A DNA stretch of 62,236 nt from Ignavibacteriota bacterium. GTDB taxonomy: Bacteria > Bacteroidota > Ignavibacteria > UBA10030 > SZUA-254. Under the pieces are notes generated by a model. That model saw only the letters and a program-made list of their open reading frames with translations, did not search any database and was not told where the DNA came from. A program made the translations under genes and the position numbers. Shown here in pieces: positions 3,639 through 55,073 of this stretch. The first letter of the stretch is position 1, and each line of letters starts with the position of its first letter. Location of the stretch: positions 1-62,236 of the forward strand of contig JACREZ010000026.1 of the NCBI GenBank assembly GCA_016212665.1. The letters run 5' to 3'.

Positions 3639-3701
3639 GTGAGTGGTGAGTGGTGAGTGGTGATTATTTAAATCCGCAATCTGAAATCCGAAATCCGAAA
3701 T
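3639..3701. repeat. Heptamer repeat arrays between nuoK and nuoL
   Basis: Two adjacent arrays have exact 7-bp period. Positions 3639-3666 hold three copies of GTGAGTG and one variant, GTGATTA. Positions 3674-3701 hold CCGCAAT, CTGAAAT, CCGAAAT, CCGAAAT. The second array is homologous to the array inside cusA (22345-22393) and, reversed, to those at 10025-10080 and 45503-45537. The sequence is non-coding and falls inside an operon, so it would be in the transcript. Confidence 0.85.
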
Positions 3702-3706
3702 CATGT

Positions 3707-10024: not shown

Positions 10025-10080
10025 AAATTTCGAATTGCGAAGTGCGAAGTGTGGATTGCGGATTAAAGATTTTAATTTTT
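10025..10080. repeat. Heptamer repeat array upstream of asnS
   Basis: Eight consecutive 7-bp units run AAATTTC, GAATTGC, GAAGTGC, GAAGTGT, GGATTGC, GGATTAA, AGATTTT, AATTTTT. The period is constant but the unit drifts from a GATTGCG type to an AATTTTT type, so two repeat families are joined in one array. It occupies most of the 72-bp gap between the response regulator gene and asnS. Confidence 0.8.
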
Positions 10081-16971: not shown

Positions 16972-18267
16972 ATGAAATACTTTTTTGTAATTTCTCTTTT
17001 GTTTTTTTGTTCAGTATTTGCATCGAGTCAAACGGATACCATTGTTATACCCGAATCAAATTTTCTTGACCTGGAATCAATAATCATAGAAGCATTGGTT
17101 TCCAATCAGGAAATTCAATCAATGCAATATGATTGGGATATGATTATTGCCAAAGTTCCTCAGTCAGGAACCTTGCCAAATCCGATGCTTGAATATATGC
17201 ACGATGAATTTCCCGGCATTCGTTTTGGCGAGCAAATGTTTTCCCGAATCAAACTCTCTCAGATGTTTGATTATCCAACTAAACTTTCAACCGAGCGAAC
17301 GATTGCCGAAATCCAGGCAGAACATTCGCACCATGGACATTTAGAAAAAATAAATAGCATCATTGCAAATGTGAAGTCGGTTTACTTTGAATTGTGGTAC
17401 GTTCAACAGGCAATATTTTTGATGAACGAAAATATCCGTCTGATGAATCAATTCCTTTCAATTGCGCAAACAAAGTATAGTGTTGGAAACGCTACTCTTC
17501 AAGAGGTTTTGAAATCGCAGGTAGAGATAACAAAAATGCAAAACCAACTTATTGATTTGCGCGCTAAAGAACTGAGCATGAAGGCAATGTTGATGGCGTT
17601 CCTGAATCGTCAACAGGAAGATACGCTTGGCTATGCTTTCATATCCGAAATTGTTGCATTCGATACAACGCTTGATTCCCTCGAACAGTATGCCCTTTCA
17701 AATCGTCCAATGTTGATTCACGATTCGCTCATGATAAGTGAAAATCAAAAAATGTTAAAAATGGCAAAACTTGAATATTACCCCGACTTCAATGTGAGTC
17801 TCGAAAAAGTCTATTCACCAATGACACAGTTTGATGGATGGAGTATCTCGGCAGGAATTACTTTGCCGTTCGTTCCTTGGACAATCACAAGGACGGACTC
17901 CAAAATCGAAGAGGCGAATCTTGGAATCAAAAAAGCGGAGGCAGGATATTTATCATCGAAAAATATGGTCATCTCATCGGTGAGAGATTTGTACTATCGA
18001 ATCTCAAGCGGAAGAAGACAAATCAACAATTATGCAACGACGATTATCCCTCAAGCGGAACAATCGTTGCAAGCGAGTCTCACATCGTACCAAAGTTCAC
18101 AAACAGATTTTCTCATGCTCATCGATGCGTTCAGAACATTAACTGATTTACGCATGGAGTACTTCATGCTTCGAATGCAATTCGAGCAAAACGTTGCCGA
18201 ACTCGAACGAGTCATCGGCAAGTCATATTACACTGATTCTCAACTCACTCAAGGAAATGGACAATGA
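16972..18267 (+). CDS. cusC: TolC-family outer-membrane efflux protein (CusC-like)
   Basis: This outer-membrane channel belongs to a tripartite heavy-metal efflux pump. The 431-residue precursor has a signal peptide (KYFFVISLLFFCSVFASSQ) and two OEP repeats of long helices and strands (SVGNATLQEVLKSQVEITKMQNQL, then SYQSSQTDFLMLIDAFRTL), as in TolC/CusC. LPNPMLEYMHDEFP near residue 62 is common in the CusC/CzcC-like group. The start ATG is preceded by AAAGGAAAAG. The stop overlaps the cusB ATG by 4 bp. The channel function follows from the family; copper/silver specificity comes from the neighbours. Confidence 0.9.
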   Translation: MKYFFVISLLFFCSVFASSQTDTIVIPESNFLDLESIIIEALVSNQEIQSMQYDWDMIIAKVPQSGTLPNPMLEYMHDEFPGIRFGEQMFSRIKLSQMFDYPTKLSTERTIAEIQAEHSHHGHLEKINSIIANVKSVYFELWYVQQAIFLMNENIRLMNQFLSIAQTKYSVGNATLQEVLKSQVEITKMQNQLIDLRAKELSMKAMLMAFLNRQQEDTLGYAFISEIVAFDTTLDSLEQYALSNRPMLIHDSLMISENQKMLKMAKLEYYPDFNVSLEKVYSPMTQFDGWSISAGITLPFVPWTITRTDSKIEEANLGIKKAEAGYLSSKNMVISSVRDLYYRISSGRRQINNYATTIIPQAEQSLQASLTSYQSSQTDFLMLIDAFRTLTDLRMEYFMLRMQFEQNVAELERVIGKSYYTDSQLTQGNGQ

Positions 18268-19850
18268 AAAAGATTTTTGTCATTAGCTCAATTATTATAC
18301 TTGGAACACTCGTTCTGTTAGTCTATTCAAATTATTTCTCCTCAGAGAAAAAATCCGACTCAGAAACTCAATCACAGGAGAAAGAATACTACACCTGCCC
18401 GATGCACCCGTCCGTAATTTCTGACCGACCGGGCGCTTGCCCCGTTTGTGGAATGGCATTGGTGAAAAAATCAAAAATGCAAGATGCATCCGAAGAAGAA
18501 ATGAAGAATTTACAGCATGTAAGTCTTTCGGCATCACAGCGAGTAATTGCTAATGTTTCAACAACATCCGTAACACGGCAAGACATCAACAAAGAAATAT
18601 CTGCAGTCGGAGTTGTTGATTTTGCCGAGCCATTACAAACGACTGTCACTGCCCGTTTCAGAGGACGCATCGAAAAACTCTACGCCAATTTCACAGGCGA
18701 AAAAGTTAAACAAGGTCAGCCGCTGTTTGATTTGTACAGCCCGGATTTAGTTTCTGCCCAGCGAGAATTTATTATCGCTTTGAATTCTCTGGGCGATTCG
18801 CTTTTCTCCGGCACAAATCAATCTTTGATGCTGAATGCTTCACGGGACAGATTGCGTATCCACTTCGGGATGACGGAACAACAAATCGCTGCCATCGAAC
18901 AAACACGACAAACACAATCAACGATGACATATTTCTCCCCTATTTCCGGCACAGTTCTTTCGAAAGAAATTCAGGAAGGACAGTATGTTGATGAGGGAAT
19001 GTCACTGTATAAACTCGCCGACCTCTCGAACGTGTGGATTTACCTTGATGTGTATGAAAAGGATATTCGCTTTATTTTGATAAATCATCCTGTCCAAATC
19101 ACAACAGAAACATATCCCAACGAAACGTTCAAAGGCAAAGTTACTTTCATTGACCCGGTCATCAACAATGAAACACGAACCGTGCGTGTGCGAACAGAGT
19201 TTGACAATCCAAACGGAAAATTGAAACCTCAGATGTATGTAAAGGCACAGATTCATGTTCCTTCGTCGTCAGCGCTTGTTGTTCCTGCAACGGCAGTGTT
19301 GTACACAGGAAAACGGAATGTTGTTTGGGTTGAAGTTCAGGAAAATTTCTTCGAGCCGCGTGAAGTTGAACTTGGAATCAGCAGCGGTTCGTACATTGAA
19401 GTTCTTTCTGGGCTCAAAGAAGAAGATATCGTGGTTACTTCAGGAGGATATTTGCTTGAATCGGAAAGTCAACTTCAGCAACCTGGTGGCTCTTCAGGCG
19501 GACATCAACACGATGGAACGAAAAAAGAGACTGAAGAAGAACAGCAAAAGTCCGGTGACGAACACGAAGGACATCAAATGCAAAGTGATGCAAGAATTAT
19601 AGTTGATGGAAACTATACTCCAAATATTATCCATGCAAAGCGAGGAAAGAAGTTGACAATCGCATTTGAACGACACGATGAATCGAAATGCACCGACGAA
19701 GTCGTGTTTGAAGATTTTAACATTCGGAAAAAACTTCCTTCGCATCAAACCACCCTTATAGAGATTACTCCTCAAGAAGCCGGGGAATTTCGCTTTACCT
19801 GCGGCATGGATATGGTCGAAGGCAAACTTATTGTTCACCAAGAAAATTAA
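18264..19850 (+). CDS. cusB: CusB-like efflux adaptor with N-terminal metal-binding and C-terminal cupredoxin domains
   Basis: This is the periplasmic adaptor linking the RND pump to the outer-membrane channel. The 528 residues contain an N-terminal membrane anchor (4-22); a heavy-metal-binding domain (about 43-68, YTCPMHPSV ... GACPVCGMALVKK); an HlyD-like barrel-sandwich hybrid and beta-barrel domains (about 95-400); a His/Glu-rich linker (GGHQHDGTKK...DEHEGHQM); and a C-terminal cupredoxin-like domain (about 443-528). In the last, Cys476 (SKCTDEVVF) and Cys513-x-Met-x-Met (FTCGMDMVEG) look like Cu ligands. The same domain occurs alone at 24471 and 27768. Most CusB proteins lack this C-terminal fusion. 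The gene overlaps cusC by 4 bp and precedes cusA by 11 bp. Confidence 0.93.
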   Translation: MKKIFVISSIIILGTLVLLVYSNYFSSEKKSDSETQSQEKEYYTCPMHPSVISDRPGACPVCGMALVKKSKMQDASEEEMKNLQHVSLSASQRVIANVSTTSVTRQDINKEISAVGVVDFAEPLQTTVTARFRGRIEKLYANFTGEKVKQGQPLFDLYSPDLVSAQREFIIALNSLGDSLFSGTNQSLMLNASRDRLRIHFGMTEQQIAAIEQTRQTQSTMTYFSPISGTVLSKEIQEGQYVDEGMSLYKLADLSNVWIYLDVYEKDIRFILINHPVQITTETYPNETFKGKVTFIDPVINNETRTVRVRTEFDNPNGKLKPQMYVKAQIHVPSSSALVVPATAVLYTGKRNVVWVEVQENFFEPREVELGISSGSYIEVLSGLKEEDIVVTSGGYLLESESQLQQPGGSSGGHQHDGTKKETEEEQQKSGDEHEGHQMQSDARIIVDGNYTPNIIHAKRGKKLTIAFERHDESKCTDEVVFEDFNIRKKLPSHQTTLIEITPQEAGEFRFTCGMDMVEGKLIVHQEN

Positions 19851-19861
19851 AGGATGTTGTT

Positions 19862-22800
19862 ATGATTGAAAGAATAATAGACTACTGCGCACGCAATAAG
19901 TTCATCGTCATCTTATTTTATTTGATAATAATTGGCTGGGGAATTTGGGCTGTTGCTAACACGCCTCTTGACGCGATTCCTGATTTATCTGAGAATCAAG
20001 TAATCGTTTTTACAGAATGGATGGGACGGTCGCCCAAACTTATTGAAGACCAAGTCACATTTCCACTCGTCACCGCACTTCAAGGCGTTCCGGAAGTGCA
20101 TGCGATTCGCGCGCAATCCATGTTCGGCATGTCCTTCATCTATATCATATTTGATGAACGAACAGATTTGTATTGGGCAAGAAGTCGCGTGTTAGAAAAA
20201 CTTTCCACAGTACAATCCGCTTTGCCACCCGGAGCGAAGATGCAACTCGGTCCCGATGGAACAGGAGTTGGCCATGTCTTCTGGTACACGCTTGAAGGCA
20301 AACAAGATTTGGGAACACTCCGCGCAATTCAGGATTGGTACGTGAAATTGAATCTGCAAGGAGTTCAGGGCGTTGCAGAAGTTGCAAGCATTGGCGGCTA
20401 CGTCCGTCAGTATCAGGTTGATGTTGACCCGAATAAGATGAAAGCATATAGCGTCTCGCTCAACGATATTCAAACCGCAGTGATGCGTTCGAATAATGAT
20501 GTTGGTGGAAAACTTCTTGAAATTTCCGACGCGGAATATTTCGTGCGCGGACAAGGGTACATTCAATCTGTTTGGGATATAGAAAACATTGTGGTTGGAA
20601 CCGGCTCGAACGGAGTGCCGATTTATATCAGCAACATTGGTACCGTACAAATCGGACCGGATATTCGTCGTGGTTCCATCGAGAAAGATGGAAAAGGACA
20701 AGCAGTCGGTGGAATTGTTGTCATGCGGTACGAAGAAAATGCAAAAGCCGTGATAGACAGAATCAAAGAACGCATCAAAGAAATTTCACCCGGACTTCCT
20801 GAAGGAGTAGAAATCAAACCGGCATACGACCGGAGTGACCTCATCCTTGCTTCAATCGAAACCTTAAAAAGCGCTCTCATTGAAGAAGCAATTGTTGTTG
20901 GTCTTGTCGTTCTCATTTTTCTCCTTCATGTACGAAGTGTCATACGTGTCATCATCGAAATCCCCATTGCCGTTTTGATTGCATTTATTTGCATGAAAAT
21001 TTTCGGTATCACTTCCAACATCATGTCGCTGGGAGGAATAGCTATTGCCATCGGCGTCATTGTTGATGCCTCCATCGTGCTGGTAGAAAATGCGTACCGG
21101 AACGTAGCCCGTGCGCAAGAAGAAAAAGGTGAACTGACGAAACAAGAGTACATTGAAATCTCTATAGTTTCAGCAAAGCAAGTTGGTCCGGCGATTTTCT
21201 TCTCCGTTGCAATTATGGTTGTCTCCTTCCTCCCTGTTTTTTTGTTAGAGGGACAAGAAGGAAAATTGTTCCGACCTTTGGCGTTTACAAAAACATTTGT
21301 GCTTGCCGGTTCCGCGATTATTGCCATCACACTTGTTCCGATGTTGATGACCATGCTGACGCGCGGGAAATTTCGCAGTGAGAATAAAAATCCAATCACA
21401 CGTTTTCTCAACTGGATTTATGCACCGGTCATTCATTGGGTACTTAAACATCGCGCGATAACCATTGCGATTAATGTCATTGCGCTTCTGATTACCATTC
21501 CAATGATAATCAGCATCGGCTCTGAATTTATGCCGCCGCTTGATGAAGGAAGTTTACTGTTCATGCCTGTCACACTTCCCTCTGCATCAATCACAGAAGT
21601 GAATCGCATTCTGCAAGTGCAGGATGCAATTATCAAATCTGTTCCTGAAGTAGAACAGGTGTTAGGGAAAGTCGGAAAAGCGGAAACTTCAACCGACCCC
21701 GCGCCTGTCAGCATGATTGAATCCATCATCCTTCTCAAACCAAAATCTGAGTGGCGGGAAGGAATTACCAAGGACGACATTATTGCTGAACTTGATTCCA
21801 AACTACAATTCCCCGGCGTTCGAAACGGTTGGACACAGCCAATCATCAATCGCATCAACATGCTTTCGACCGGTGTACGAACTGACCTTGGAATTAAAAT
21901 CTTCGGGAAAGATTTGGACACACTCGAACGATTAGCAATTCAGGCAGAACAAATTGTGAGAAAAGTCCCCGGCGCGGCTGATTTGTACGCAGAACGAACC
22001 CAAGGCGGTTACTTCCTCGACATAAAAATTGACCGGAAAGCAGTTGCCCGCTATGGAATCAATGTCGGTGATGTACAAGATATAATCGAAACTGCAATCG
22101 GCGGACAAAATCTCGGTGTCGTCATCGAAGGACGCCAACGTTTTCCCATTCGTGTTCGCTACGAACGTGAATACCGGGACAATATTGAAGCGCTCAAGAA
22201 TCTCCTCGTTCCTGTCAACACATCTTCATCAGGACAAATGAATTCATCACCGATGCAATCCGCCTCTTCAGGAATGAACGGTGAACAAAATGGAGGAATG
22301 AATGGCGGAAAAAATGGAGAAATGGAGAAACGGAGTAATGGAGTATCCAATAATCAATCCGCAATTGGCAATCCGAAATCCGAAATCTCAAATCGAGGGT
22401 ACATTCCTCTCGCTCAATTAGCAACCATAGAAATCGTCCCCGGTCCTCCGATGATTTCAAGTGAGAATGCACAACTTCGTTCTATCGTGTTTCTCAATGT
22501 CCGAGGCCGAGACATGGGAAGTTTCGTCGGTGAAGCAAAGGAAGTTTTGGAAAAAGAACTCAAACTTCCACAAGGATACACACTTCAATGGAGCGGTCAA
22601 TGGGAAAACCAAATCAGGGCAAAAGCGCGGCTTCAAATCATGATGCCAATTGTGTTCCTCCTTATTTTTGTCATGCTCTATTTCACAACGAAAGATTATC
22701 TGGAAGCGTTTGTCGTGATGCTTTCTGTTCCGTTCGCACTCATTGGCGGTGTGTATCTGATATATTTCTTAGGATACAACTTCTCCGTTGCCGTGTGGGT

Positions 22801-23203
22801 GGGTTTCATCGCTCTCTACGGCCTTGCGGTAGAAACAGGTGTCGTCATGGTGGTCTATCTGCATGAAGCGTTAGACAGAAAACTCATTGCACATCAGCAA
22901 GGAAAGCGTGGCGCTATTACGATGCAAGACATCACTGACGCGACGATTGAAGGTTCGGTCATGCGCTTGCGTCCTAAAATTATGACTGTCGGAACGAGTC
23001 TCATCGGACTCATCCCGATCATGTGGAGTACCGGGGTCGGCGCAGATGTCATGCAACCGCTCGCCGCTCCGATGATCGGCGGTCTTATTACATCAACAAT
23101 TCACGTTCTCGTTGTAACACCCATTCTGTTCAGTTTCATGAAAGAACATAATCTGAAGAAAGGTAATCTTGAACTTTCTAAAATGGCAGGATGGATGAAG
23201 TAA
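19862..23203 (+). CDS. cusA: CusA-like heavy-metal efflux RND transporter
   Basis: This is an inner-membrane proton-driven RND pump of the heavy-metal class, exporting Cu(I)/Ag(I) through CusB and CusC. The 1,113 residues have twelve helices in the usual two blocks. TM4 is GGIAIAIGVIVDASIVLVENAYR with the proton-relay Asp. The VGKAETSTDPAPVSMIESIILLKP region is typical of CusA and includes one putative Met ligand. The protein is about 60 residues longer than usual. The excess lies at residues 787-845 in a periplasmic loop of the second half: a Met/Gly/Asn/Ser-rich insert partly made of 8-bp and 7-bp tandem DNA repeats. The strongest evidence for function is the cusCBA order. Confidence 0.95.
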   Translation: MIERIIDYCARNKFIVILFYLIIIGWGIWAVANTPLDAIPDLSENQVIVFTEWMGRSPKLIEDQVTFPLVTALQGVPEVHAIRAQSMFGMSFIYIIFDERTDLYWARSRVLEKLSTVQSALPPGAKMQLGPDGTGVGHVFWYTLEGKQDLGTLRAIQDWYVKLNLQGVQGVAEVASIGGYVRQYQVDVDPNKMKAYSVSLNDIQTAVMRSNNDVGGKLLEISDAEYFVRGQGYIQSVWDIENIVVGTGSNGVPIYISNIGTVQIGPDIRRGSIEKDGKGQAVGGIVVMRYEENAKAVIDRIKERIKEISPGLPEGVEIKPAYDRSDLILASIETLKSALIEEAIVVGLVVLIFLLHVRSVIRVIIEIPIAVLIAFICMKIFGITSNIMSLGGIAIAIGVIVDASIVLVENAYRNVARAQEEKGELTKQEYIEISIVSAKQVGPAIFFSVAIMVVSFLPVFLLEGQEGKLFRPLAFTKTFVLAGSAIIAITLVPMLMTMLTRGKFRSENKNPITRFLNWIYAPVIHWVLKHRAITIAINVIALLITIPMIISIGSEFMPPLDEGSLLFMPVTLPSASITEVNRILQVQDAIIKSVPEVEQVLGKVGKAETSTDPAPVSMIESIILLKPKSEWREGITKDDIIAELDSKLQFPGVRNGWTQPIINRINMLSTGVRTDLGIKIFGKDLDTLERLAIQAEQIVRKVPGAADLYAERTQGGYFLDIKIDRKAVARYGINVGDVQDIIETAIGGQNLGVVIEGRQRFPIRVRYEREYRDNIEALKNLLVPVNTSSSGQMNSSPMQSASSGMNGEQNGGMNGGKNGEMEKRSNGVSNNQSAIGNPKSEISNRGYIPLAQLATIEIVPGPPMISSENAQLRSIVFLNVRGRDMGSFVGEAKEVLEKELKLPQGYTLQWSGQWENQIRAKARLQIMMPIVFLLIFVMLYFTTKDYLEAFVVMLSVPFALIGGVYLIYFLGYNFSVAVWVGFIALYGLAVETGVVMVVYLHEALDRKLIAHQQGKRGAITMQDITDATIEGSVMRLRPKIMTVGTSLIGLIPIMWSTGVGADVMQPLAAPMIGGLITSTIHVLVVTPILFSFMKEHNLKKGNLELSKMAGWMK
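22313..22393 (+). repeat. Tandem repeats (4 x 8 bp, then 7 x 7 bp) captured inside cusA
   Basis: Four 8-bp units (AATGGAGA, AATGGAGA, AACGGAGT, AATGGAGT; 22313-22344) abut seven 7-bp units ending in AAT (22345-22393, including CCGCAAT and CCGAAAT twice). The total of 81 bp is 27 codons, so the frame is kept (residues 818-844). The 7-bp part matches the intergenic array at 3674-3701. Confidence 0.85.
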
Positions 23204-23206
23204 TCA

Positions 23207-23234
23207 ATGCAAAATGAAAAATTCAAAATTAAAA
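23207..23234. repeat. Heptamer repeat after cusA
   Basis: ATGCAAA, ATGAAAA, ATTCAAA, ATTAAAA form four 7-bp units directly after the cusA stop. It is the reverse-complement relative of the arrays at 44261 and 45561. Confidence 0.7.
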
Positions 23235-23268
23235 AAATTTCTCACAACCTATTTATCAAGGAAACCCT

Positions 23269-44207: not shown

Positions 44208-44260
44208 TTCGTTATCGGTTATAAGTGTTTATTGATACCACGAATGACAAATAACATTTT

Positions 44261-44288
44261 TTAATTTTTCATTTTTAATTTTGAATTG
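44261..44288. repeat. Heptamer repeat upstream of the histidine kinase
   Basis: TTAATTT, TTCATTT, TTAATTT, TGAATTG in 7-bp steps end four bases before the GTG start at 44293, in the place of a ribosome-binding site. Related in reverse to 23207-23234. Confidence 0.75.
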
Positions 44289-45504: not shown

Positions 45505-45537
45505 TTTCGGATTGCGAATTGTCAATTGCGAATTAGT
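45503..45537. repeat. Heptamer repeat (GATTTCG type) after the kinase
   Basis: GATTTCG, GATTGCG, AATTGTC, AATTGCG, AATTAGT: five 7-bp units that start over the kinase stop codon. Reverse relative of 3674-3701 and of the cusA insert. Confidence 0.75.
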
Positions 45538-45560
45538 TTGGTAACTTTATATCAGCATTG

Positions 45561-45588
45561 TTAATTTTTACTTTTAAATTTTTAATTG
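45561..45588. repeat. Heptamer repeat (TTAATTT type) before the CPXCG gene
   Basis: TTAATTT, TTACTTT, TAAATTT, TTAATTG end six bases before the ATG at 45595. Same family as 44261-44288. Confidence 0.7.
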
Positions 45589-45810: not shown

Positions 45811-45938
45811 TGTTTCGTGTTTCCGGTTTACTGTTTCCGGTTTTCGATTGAAAGATACATTTCTTGTCAAAAGGTTACGGGTTACAGATTTCTGTTTTAC
45901 CATACTCACCTCTCAATGCTCAGCGCTCACCGCTCTAT
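45811..45938. repeat. Three successive heptamer arrays in one gap
   Basis: Three arrays share one 223-bp gap: 45811-45845 (TGTTTCG, TGTTTCC, GGTTTAC, TGTTTCC, GGTTTTC); 45872-45899 (AGGTTAC, GGGTTAC, AGATTTC, TGTTTTA); and 45904-45938 (ACTCACC, TCTCAAT, GCTCAGC, GCTCACC, GCTCTAT). Each has a constant 7-bp period and its own unit family. The last resembles 8701-8721 and the reverse of 3639-3666. Confidence 0.8.
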
Positions 45939-49143: not shown

Positions 49144-49199
49144 GGTTACAGGTTACAGGTTACGCAACAAAAGTAACCCGTAACCTGTAACCTGTAACC
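49144..49199 (+). terminator. Perfect 21-bp inverted repeat built from heptamers, possible terminator
   Basis: GGTTACA, GGTTACA, GGTTACG (49144-49164) are the exact reverse complement of 49179-49199, with a 14-nt loop. Each arm is three 7-bp units, and a fourth unit flanks the right arm. The hairpin lies 10 bp after the VWA fusion stop and is followed by a short T-run (CGTTTTTG). It could terminate or stabilise the transcript. Confidence 0.6.
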
Positions 49200-49271
49200 T
49201 CGTTTTTGTCCTTCCCTTCCTTTTCCGTATTTTTGCACCGCATTTTTACTCACACAAAATTCAACTCAACC

Positions 49272-51674: not shown

Positions 51675-54600
51675 TTATTTGATTATCAGCATCTTTTTAA
51701 TAGAAACAAACGATTCAGGTTTACTAACGTTATTCCCATGACTTACTTCAAGTTTGTAGAAGTAAACTCCTGAAGCAAAATTAGTTGCGTCAAATGGAAT
51801 TTGATGTTGACCTACTTCAAATTCTTTTTGGTCAACTATGTTTGCCACCAACTGACCGAGAATGTTATAAATTTTCAACGATACAACTGAACGATTGGGG
51901 AGTTCAAATGCAATCGTTGTAACAGGATTAAACGGATTGGGATAATTCTGGTGGAGTTTGAATTCCGATGGTTGAGCGTTTTCTTGTATGCCAACAACGG
52001 TCGGGTTAAATACAAATCTGTCATCAGAGGTCAGAGCCTGATATGGATAGATGACTAATGTGCCGGGGCTTTCATTCTGAACATGACCTGTTATCGTACG
52101 CAACGAAAGTATGTACATAATTGTTGCTTTCGAGCCGACAGTCAATTCTTCTTCGATCGCGTTGGGTGGCATCGAAAATTGATTCGTTCCGGTTGAATCA
52201 TATTCTTCGTCATAAATGAAAATAGGTTCGAAATGTTGCCATAAACCATCATTTCTAAAATCAAACCATGCCATAGTCAATTGACGTTTGCCGAAATGGA
52301 CACGATGGTCCCAAACTGAAAATGGAACCTCCGTAAATGAGGTTTCTGGTTGAATAATAAATCCTCTTCCAGTTCCTGCCTGTCGTAGGCGGTATGCTTT
52401 CTGTTTTTGAGTAGAATCGAATTTCACTTCAACTATGTAATTATTAGTTGTATCGAAAACAGAATTAATTCTTGCAATATAAGAACTAACACTAAATCCA
52501 GGTGCAACACCAAAATTAAAAACTGCATAAGGTCCAAGGAAATGCCCTGAGCCCTGAATCCACTGTGGGAAGTCCGAAATCCATCTGGTTGAATCGTGAC
52601 TCAGTCCTCCTTTCCTTCCCCAATTTTTTCCCCTGAACAATTTAAATCCATCAATAGCAGGAGTACCATGCCCAATATCATCAGGAAACGGTTGATTCAG
52701 GAGTAAGTCCCTCCCCTCAGAAATATCAGTCAGATTAAATCCTTGATTGGAGAGTGTATCAATTGAGTCAACAATGGAAATTAGATATTCATGGTCTTTA
52801 ACATCAGAAGGATTTACAACTCTTACATCGAATGCCCATGCACCCGTCCCTTGTGTGTGGACTTGCGGAGATGAAAAAATTCTGAACGGTATATCCTGCA
52901 CAGGAAAGCTAAAAGTTTGTCTCCATACATTTCGCTTATCATCCCGAATAATAACATCCATGCTCAACATCGAACTATCATAATCCGGCGGAACATTTAA
53001 AATGAAATATGATGAATCATCGTTCAAATTGTAAACCATCGAATAACTTGAATTATTTTCGACTTCAGGAACTGTCAGTATTCTATACCTTGGTTCCCAC
53101 GATGGACTAACTCGAAGGTTACTTAAATTTACTGAGGATGCATTTTGAAATGTTAATAGATACCGGATATTTTCACCCGGATTTGCTACACCATCGCCAT
53201 TGATATTATCAGAGACAATATTACCTGCTGCAACTGTCAATGGTCCGGCTGTAGTAATATCATCAGCAACATGTTGCCATGTGTAGCTTGAATTATCATT
53301 ATATGAAACGTTTAAATTCATATACAATCCTTCTTCTTGTTGATTCACGAGAATCGAATTTCCATAGATATGGTCGCCAGCATTTTCATCATCGTGTAAA
53401 CCATCATCATACAACTGGCCTGATGCAACATAAAAACCATTGTATTGTTTTATAATTACTCCAACCGATTGTACTGAAGTCGTATCAACATTCGCTTGAA
53501 CTTTTACTATCGTTGGTTGACCGAGACTGAAAACCGTTCGTGCTGATGCAGTCGGGATAGTAGAAAAGGGAGTTGAAAACATGAAATCATAAAAGTATTG
53601 AACTGCTTCATCATTCGACTTCAAAACAGAAACGCTGTTGAGGTGGTCGAATCCTTTACCGCCAATGAGAGCAACAACTACTTCCTGTGTATCACCGAGA
53701 GCCATCGTAAATGGTCCTGATGCGAGAACAATTCGACGGTCACTCGGAGAATCTCTTCTACCATCTATCCATCCGCGTAACGTAATTGGGTCACCGGAAA
53801 GTGTATATTTTGTCGGCTGATTGGTTGTCGGATCAATGTGAGGTTCTTCCGGTGTAATCGGGCGCGGTCTGAATCCTCTAATTAAATTCCACCACTGAAG
53901 TGTACCGGCATATTGACCGAGTGTTGGGTCGGAATCATATCCACCAGCAGCAAAATATGCAAATGAAGTCATAGGTAAATTTGTAAATCCCTGACGGTAG
54001 CCGAAATCAAACCGAGCAGTTAGCCCGCTATATGGAACAATAGGACCCTGTAACAAATCATACCCTATAGCTGGAGGGGGAAGACCAAATTTCTGATATT
54101 CATTATCAGATGCTTGCGCATTATAAACGTATCCTAATGATAATGGCACATTACATCCGGCGTAATCATCACCATAATTTCCCAAATCGGGGTCGGACCA
54201 CTTTGCAAGATACATTGAATCTATTTTTGCATTGGAGGGTGTTGTCGCCGTTCCTTTATATATCAATCTGTATCGTTGAAAGATGACATTTGCCAATTGG
54301 TCAGTCCGGTTATAAGCCCAGCAGGTAACTTGCATTTCAATACCTATCGGAGGTGAGCCGTAGAGCCCTGAAGTTGCCGATGCCCTCAAATCATTGGCAA
54401 CAAACCAAACTACCTGATCAGCATTTGCACATCCGGGTTCATCCTTCGATGAGTTGTAAACAGCTGATGTTTCAGGGTCATATACTCCGTTATAATTCCT
54501 GTCGTAATATGGCGCTCCTTTTTGCCAGGGCCATTCAAGCCAATCTTTTTTGTACTGTTCACGAACTCCATCAATCATTGCTTGAGTTACAGAATCATAC

Positions 54601-55073
54601 TTAACATCATATAGCTCTGCAGCGTCTTTTGATAAATCAGCAGTATTCCAATCTCGTCGGACTCGATATATTCGCACAGTCGAGTCACTTGGAGATTCAG
54701 CAACACCTTTGGAAACTATTCTCCCCGGAACCGTTCCATAATTATAAGTCTGACCTCCTACTCGTAGAATCACACTACTACTATCGCTGACCTTTCCTGC
54801 CCATACTAATCCACCGGCATACACCGCCGTGGCAGTTCCTCTTGGAAACGTAACACCGGAATTATCATCCTGTGGTCTTCGTTCCATTCGCCCGTCATCG
54901 CCAACCCACATAGAAATGTTGTTGATGTTGACTAATGTCGCACGAGGAGTTCCGGCTACCTGTGAAACATCCTTTTTGCGAGAAGATGTGGACTTACTTT
55001 TTATTTCTCCACTTCCCCAAACACTAAGAACAAAAATCATGATAATGACAACATTACTATGCACTCGCTTCAT
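51675..55073 (-). CDS. Large secreted protein with type IX secretion sorting domain
   Basis: This 1,132-residue protein has a signal peptide (HSNVVIIMIFVLSVWGSGE). The long mature part has Asp-rich and beta-rich segments, including DRNYNGVYDPETSAVY (EF-hand-like Asp/Asn pattern) and Ig-like regions around 600-740 (GDGVANPGENIRYLLTFQNAS). The C-terminal 90 residues form a T9SS type A sorting domain: FKLHQNYPNPFNPVTTIAF, SLKIYNILGQLV and ASGVYFYKLEV. The protein is exported by Sec, carried across the outer membrane by T9SS and then released or anchored. Biological role of the body is not recognisable. Monocistronic; a small hairpin (55112-55133) lies upstream of the start. Confidence 0.9.
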   Translation of the reverse strand: MKRVHSNVVIIMIFVLSVWGSGEIKSKSTSSRKKDVSQVAGTPRATLVNINNISMWVGDDGRMERRPQDDNSGVTFPRGTATAVYAGGLVWAGKVSDSSSVILRVGGQTYNYGTVPGRIVSKGVAESPSDSTVRIYRVRRDWNTADLSKDAAELYDVKYDSVTQAMIDGVREQYKKDWLEWPWQKGAPYYDRNYNGVYDPETSAVYNSSKDEPGCANADQVVWFVANDLRASATSGLYGSPPIGIEMQVTCWAYNRTDQLANVIFQRYRLIYKGTATTPSNAKIDSMYLAKWSDPDLGNYGDDYAGCNVPLSLGYVYNAQASDNEYQKFGLPPPAIGYDLLQGPIVPYSGLTARFDFGYRQGFTNLPMTSFAYFAAGGYDSDPTLGQYAGTLQWWNLIRGFRPRPITPEEPHIDPTTNQPTKYTLSGDPITLRGWIDGRRDSPSDRRIVLASGPFTMALGDTQEVVVALIGGKGFDHLNSVSVLKSNDEAVQYFYDFMFSTPFSTIPTASARTVFSLGQPTIVKVQANVDTTSVQSVGVIIKQYNGFYVASGQLYDDGLHDDENAGDHIYGNSILVNQQEEGLYMNLNVSYNDNSSYTWQHVADDITTAGPLTVAAGNIVSDNINGDGVANPGENIRYLLTFQNASSVNLSNLRVSPSWEPRYRILTVPEVENNSSYSMVYNLNDDSSYFILNVPPDYDSSMLSMDVIIRDDKRNVWRQTFSFPVQDIPFRIFSSPQVHTQGTGAWAFDVRVVNPSDVKDHEYLISIVDSIDTLSNQGFNLTDISEGRDLLLNQPFPDDIGHGTPAIDGFKLFRGKNWGRKGGLSHDSTRWISDFPQWIQGSGHFLGPYAVFNFGVAPGFSVSSYIARINSVFDTTNNYIVEVKFDSTQKQKAYRLRQAGTGRGFIIQPETSFTEVPFSVWDHRVHFGKRQLTMAWFDFRNDGLWQHFEPIFIYDEEYDSTGTNQFSMPPNAIEEELTVGSKATIMYILSLRTITGHVQNESPGTLVIYPYQALTSDDRFVFNPTVVGIQENAQPSEFKLHQNYPNPFNPVTTIAFELPNRSVVSLKIYNILGQLVANIVDQKEFEVGQHQIPFDATNFASGVYFYKLEVSHGNNVSKPESFVSIKKMLIIK

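Follow-up and report, generated by a model that had tools for sequence, protein, structure and literature searches.

Seven-base tandem arrays within cusA and other conserved genes of an Ignavibacteria-type genome

The common expectation for a repeat within a bacterial gene is that its unit measures three bases or a multiple of three, or that it acts as a frameshift switch. Heptamers are reported to be over-represented among the repeats of many bacteria and to have been little studied, with three heptanucleotides known in Calothrix, and the intragenic share of heptanucleotide repeats is 7 to 11% in xanthomonads, while 68% of those of Nostoc are intergenic (PMC4692102). The TAACTGA repeats of Beggiatoaceae are few in ORFs, mostly at protein ends, and contain stops in one orientation (PMC4679880). 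About half of the Borg tandem repeats lie in ORFs and become disordered protein regions; all units of these ORF repeats are divisible by three, and nearly all are unique (PMC9879509). The Rickettsia palindromic elements, about 150 bp long and palindromic, are described as lying in frame within many unrelated genes, with a conserved peptide (PMC10969869).

The arrays considered here resemble the heptanucleotide repeats of cyanobacteria, of Beggiatoaceae (TAACTGA) and of Xanthomonas and Nostoc (GGGAATC, GGGGATT) in being 7-bp tandem repeats at many places in a genome. Those families are largely intergenic, whereas 45 of 102 clusters of the present AATCCGN family, drawn from 20 genomes, lie inside open frames, many of them in the middle of conserved enzymes; the units quoted for the published families also differ from AATCCGA. 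Borg repeats share with these arrays the path from DNA repeat to disordered protein, but here the unit is seven bases and thus not divisible by three, the coding loops carry a lag-7 signal, and families are shared genome-wide and between genera. Likewise, the Rickettsia elements share with these arrays the in-frame position in unrelated genes, but the arrays are about 20 to 50 bp long and non-palindromic, unlike a palindrome of about 150 bp with a conserved peptide. An STRR-like feature, a 7-bp tandem unit at many genome places, is present here, with 32 clusters of one family in this genome. The finding belongs with the heptanucleotide repeats, as a variant that often becomes protein. Titles and abstract openings, in a search with most subscription journals outside its scope, contained no mention of such arrays in Ignavibacteria-type genomes, nor of heptamers inside MutS, PolA or CusA.

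The window, i.e. the whole stretch of 62,236 nucleotides that was analysed, contains a gene (19862..23203, plus strand) for a heavy-metal RND pump of 1113 amino acids, which scored 1134.5 bits against the TIGR00914 model of the CusA/CzcA family (cut-off 701.45). The closest solved relative is E. coli CusA, which also gave the best Foldseek matches. Residues M568, M618 and M667 of the pump, invariant in 28 aligned relatives, align with the three methionines of the Cu/Ag site of E. coli CusA, M573, M623 and M672. By model score, sequence and fold the gene is thus a true cusA. It is preceded on the same strand by genes for a TolC-like outer membrane protein (16972..18267), with model matches under the cut-offs, and for a CusB-like adaptor (18264..19850), which exceeded the cut-off of TIGR01730 (158.9 against 94.9 bits) and stayed under that of the CusB model (177.4 against 390 bits).

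Although the two pumps are alike in family, fold and these methionines, a 6-residue turn of E. coli CusA corresponds here to a loop of 63 amino acids. Alignment places its edges at residues 784-846 (22211..22399, plus strand), so that the long insert put by the sequence-only reading at residues about 787-845 exists with slightly different limits. The loop modelling proposed in the same reading gave, in an AlphaFold model from 28 sequences (mean pLDDT 79.3), values under 50 for residues 788-843, between two strands; the array sits in a loop that is predicted to be disordered and that homology with CusA would place in the periplasm.

A survey of 110 CusA loci gave the loop in 106 and, after removal of duplicates and of loops with masked bases, 93 distinct loops. 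At least 25 amino acids were found in 66 of them, including Ignavibacteria-type bins, Eisenbacteria, some Myxococcales, other Deltaproteobacteria and more, while 27 were shorter, e.g. in Pontibacter, a Zixibacterium and Myxococcus xanthus. Since long loops are found across several phyla, the insert is no peculiarity of this lineage, a possibility raised earlier for orthologue alignment to decide. The named relatives are bins titled Ignavibacteriales, Ignavibacteriae, Chlorobi, Bacteroidetes or Bacteroidota, and the long loops of relatives are rich in Met, Ser and Gly.

Methionine makes up 6.7% of the 66 long loops and 3.4% of the rest of the same proteins; all 66 contain at least one and 52 contain three or more, compared with 0.4 to 0.9% methionine in the heptamer-bearing loops of PolA and HypF. 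These values would suit a Cu(I)-handling segment, in which methionines collect or hand over copper ions and the repeats are kept for lengthening the loop. We consider this doubtful, given that the heptamer codons supply no Met, His or Cys and that other CusA proteins have 6-residue loops. Clustering of methionines as a copper motif was rejected, close Met pairs being without excess (59 against 61.8, sd 7.1). In the 56 loops of at least 40 amino acids, methionine amounts to 3.1% of the last 25 residues, which is where the heptamers of this CusA sit, and to 8.9% of the remainder. By composition, the Met/Ser/Gly/Asn-rich first part (22211..22312, plus strand; delimited by sequence and by Met enrichment in the loops of relatives) and the heptamer part are separate things. 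The former may bind Cu(I), apart from the arrays; the copper reading covers this Met-rich part and is unlikely for the array itself.

The 81 bp at 22313-22393 do consist, as the sequence-only reading had it, of four 8-bp units followed by seven 7-bp units in frame with cusA. The octamers (22313..22344, plus strand) read AATGGAGA AATGGAGA AACGGAGT AATGGAGT, and the heptamers (22345..22393, plus strand) ATCCAAT AATCAAT CCGCAAT TGGCAAT CCGAAAT CCGAAAT CTCAAAT. Matches numbered 21 of 24 at lag 8 in the octamer part (shuffle mean 8.1) and 30 of 42 at lag 7 in the heptamer part (shuffle mean 11.9, sd 2.8), and the observed count was reached in 0 of 20,000 shuffles in either case. Tandem Repeats Finder reported the octamers at 22312-22343 (4.0 copies, 87% matches) and only 4.7 copies of the heptamers (22355-22387, 80% matches), so the initial units of the heptamer run are weak and partly degenerate; the firm core at 22355-22387 includes an exact AATCCGAAATCCGAAATC at 22370-22387. 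The program also found 2.3 copies of a 24-bp repeat at 22270..22324 (plus strand), where 24 bases are absent from the congener G002. The length of exactly 27 codons is correct for these 81 in-frame bases, but it has little meaning, because the array edges are fuzzy and a working gene forces the overall frame fit of any array.

The intergenic twin of the heptamer part, an array of the same family at 3670..3702 (plus strand), is flanked by two minus-strand ORFs and shares the exact 18-mer AATCCGAAATCCGAAATC. The likeness to a non-coding array, previously delimited as 3674-3701, therefore holds, with a somewhat wider extent. The octamer family is rare, its pattern having three matches at two places in the genome. 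Ten more 7-bp arrays with other units were found in the window by Tandem Repeats Finder (3639-3663, 10026-10064, 23206-23235, 44258-44287, 45511-45534, 45557-45587, 45819-45843, 45905-45935, 49144-49163 and 49173-49200).

The pattern AATCCGNAATCCGNAATC had 49 matches in this genome, grouped into the 32 clusters, and none for its reversed control. AATCCGN arrays were present in 20 of 60 relatives, the own genome counted (reversed control, one match, in G053), and in 8 of 118 phylum-wide genomes, this genome and one from its order being among the eight (reversed control, two matches, both in G066). In 441 kb of this genome, comprising the window and 19 hand-chosen pieces, the commonest tandem period at a score of 30 or more was 7, with 64 arrays, where one Markov-chain control had 9; for period 8 the counts were 24 and 16. 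Half of the period-7 arrays (32/64) lay outside ORFs, although ORFs make up about 90% of this DNA. Array length in the 102 AATCCGN clusters ranged from 21 to 103 bp, the coding ones reaching at most 47 bp, and no clear difference in length was seen between arrays in and outside genes (medians 36 and 33, p 0.11).

Arrays were counted as lying in an open frame by a mechanical rule, namely that the frame has at least 130 codons and extends at least 40 of them beyond the array in either direction. The 45 arrays so counted occupy 44 frames in 13 genomes; another 29 clusters touch a frame of at least 150 codons without falling under the rule, mostly near the frame start, and 28 were counted as intergenic. 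A Pfam scan of 30 of the 44 frames gave a family match for every one; three of the 14 frames outside the scan are CusA. In the present genome 17 of the 32 clusters lie inside open frames. Nine of these are in CusA, MutS, a class II aldolase, MetH, a sodium symporter, Mfd, PolA, HypF and a TsaB-like protein that matches the Pfam family TsaD, and the remaining eight are in type IX sorting domains. That a repeat family which also lies between genes stands in frame within cusA is thus supported; that the entry of this family into a gene is exceptional is not, given 17 of 32 clusters in open frames.

Several of these genes carry arrays in more than one genus. The PolA array occupies the same aligned place in the present genome (G000), G005 and G020, the HypF array in G000 and G014, and the CusA array the same loop in G000, G014 and G020. 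Judged by similar flanks, arrays are also shared in MetH (G000, G005), a PLP enzyme (G009, G030) and the symporter (G000, G003), and in ValRS of G002 and G020, there in opposite orientations. Draft genomes can misjoin short repeats, and the array might in principle be an assembly artefact; like arrays in frame in the cusA genes of three genomes whose assemblies are separate (G000, G014 and G020), and arrays inside open frames in 13 genomes, make this scarcely credible.

Some further features of the array-bearing genes were noted. Proteins of DNA repair and replication hold arrays, namely MutS of G000 (L115), PolA (L131, L148, L202) and Mfd (L124). A G+C-rich inverted repeat of the kind CCCGCC...GGCGGG adjoins heptamers in genes (L118 at about 1945-2000, L115 at about 1930-1965, L131 at about 2000-2050 on the minus strand, and the cusA loops of L024 and L029) and seems to be another interspersed repeat that was taken up along with them; the two cusA loops, although from different families, both contain the peptide KSPPDGRAGEI that derives from it. 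A single TAA was seen within an otherwise full-length match in one hypF (L277, genome G016) and one polA (G050:C43:98584-101397).

Because seven bases are two codons plus one and three units make 21 bp, the three frames of an array give one and the same heptapeptide apart from rotation, whatever the frame of insertion. AATCCGA yields the hydrophilic NPKSEIR, and SDFGFRI from the other strand, and is free of stops in all six frames; this openness was rejected as anything special, being shared by 50% of all heptamers. Since the frames spell one heptapeptide, an array would fit any of them as long as the total length of the insert is divisible by three, a condition that selection on the gene would enforce. 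Of 34 arrays in frames outside sorting domains, 29 are read as NPKSEIR-like and 5 in the opposite orientation; all 11 arrays in sorting domains read SDFGFRI-like. Array orientation in genes is therefore filtered.

The units themselves differ at fixed places. The CusA protein of G002, which belongs to the same genus, is 96% identical over the part present, and the DNA on both sides of the loop is 88% identical; within the loop the two genomes are separated by a 24-base in-frame gap, the octamer stretch is largely common, and the heptamer unit is AATCCGA in G000 and AATCTCA in G002. The array thus differs between congeners, and the identical insert in close relatives that would have refuted the sequence-only reading was not found in this pair. 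In the PolA loop the heptamer is AATCCGA, CAATCAG, ACAAACC, CACATCT, AGAGGTC or AGAGC-based, depending on the genome, and in the HypF loop it likewise varies between genomes.

Differences of this kind could also arise if one old heptamer array had been present in the CusA loop since before the split of families f1 and f2, its unit being rewritten by slippage and conversion, so that apparent captures are re-homogenisations. Heptamer-like DNA at the loop end in several f1 and f2 genomes agrees with this, as do the different heptamers that G014 and its near relative G009 carry in the same register of the cusA loop. On the other hand, a CusA tree of 34 rows, built with the loop left out and with 8 of 31 inner branches weakly supported, needs three changes for a perfect AATCCG array and four for any strong heptamer array, and among the rows that lack a strong array are near relatives of array-bearing ones, although some show weak traces (11/14). 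We give the old array somewhat less than an even chance. A unit that is not a multiple of three could also serve as a phase-variation switch, the pump being silenced by the frameshift that follows when a single unit is gained or lost; with only about 2.5 perfect units in the array, and an internal stop in none of the cusA matches listed, this is very unlikely.

The periodicity of the coding loops was compared with codon shuffles in 43 cusA sequences, 30 hypF sequences at two sites and 30 polA sequences. In all these loops the match fraction was raised at lags 7, 14 and 21, with lag-7 z-values of 8.8 for cusA, 9.5 and 7.1 for hypF and 11.0 for polA; other lags stayed mostly within 3, the largest exceptions being 3.5 (hypF site 1, lag 6) and about -3.8. 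Without the sequences that had been found through the pattern, the lag-7 values were 7.4, 6.8 and 6.2, and 7.8, respectively, and without family f1 as well, 6.6, 1.6 and 3.0, and 1.9. The hypF and polA signal is therefore mainly a trait of family f1, as its removal leaves only cusA firm. In the rest of the three genes the lag-7 fraction was within 0.006 of the shuffles, with z of 2 to 3 at lag 7 and of a size up to about 11 at other lags; with so much sequence small differences reach high z, which thus reflects the size of the sample rather than that of the effect. A lag of 7 does not correspond to whole codons, which argues that the process acts on DNA while selection keeps what the protein tolerates. 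The lag-7 signal is beyond what protein selection alone would produce, and selection for the heptapeptide as the driver was rejected, since the strongest lag is 7, not 21, and the units vary by genome.

Type IX sorting domains, of which this genome has at least 150 copies, present a related case. The stretch after the motif NPFNP was strongly 7-periodic in 4 of 9 copies from the hand-chosen stretches and the window and in 9 of 28 copies from the top 30 model matches, and in neither set of tested copies was strong periodicity seen at other lags from 4 to 12. Pooled, 12 of 36 distinct copies were strongly 7-periodic; the same peptides with random synonymous codons gave on average 2.26 such copies and at most 7 in 300 trials. 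The signal is thus partly forced by the protein. About one third of the sampled sorting domains here have a heptamer-encoded strand, compared with 1 of 26 in four relatives. A count of 18 out of 43 is biased, as it includes copies found via the AATCCG pattern. The units are several (ATTTCGG, ATTATCA, GTTATCA), and each fits the strand pattern. One sorting domain in the window (51726-51944 on the minus strand, within ORF 51675-55073) has a strand that is not heptamer-encoded, with 5 of 14 matches at lag 7.

On the strength of the spread of the family, its in-frame presence in conserved genes, the lag-7 signal in coding loops and the differences of unit at the same place, we propose, with a probability of about 0.75, that the cusA array stems, as one of its products, from a process at the DNA level by which tandem arrays of 7 bp, and fewer of 8 bp, are made, homogenised and dispersed in this order. 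Counterpoints are the weak hypF and polA signal outside family f1, the mechanical frame rule, the few control matches and the rarity of octamers. In the proposed process, arrays would be made and moved by replication slippage together with recombination or templated repair between arrays, and would accumulate in intergenic DNA and, in frame, in parts of proteins where change is tolerated. The acceptor in CusA would be the predicted disordered loop that stands in place of a short turn, and that many relatives have without these repeats; the array probably has no function there beyond being tolerated. The sequence-only reading thus described a real feature, but took its scope as too small and interpreted it in part wrongly.

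Non-triplet arrays thus lie in frame in conserved enzymes, in the same loops of different genera and with different units; protein sequence would not be expected to come from a repeat whose unit is indivisible by three. How much of the new protein sequence is owed to DNA repeats and how much to peptide selection can be tested by comparative genomics alone. In genomes of this kind, NPKSEIR- or SDFGFRI-like likeness between unrelated proteins should be taken as a warning of a DNA repeat, not of homology. It is conceivable, though on balance improbable, that the making of 7-bp arrays is a standing generator of protein sequence in this order, supplying loops of core enzymes such as MutS, PolA and Mfd and, read from the other DNA strand, the beta strand of the sorting domains, which would perhaps serve as a reservoir of units.
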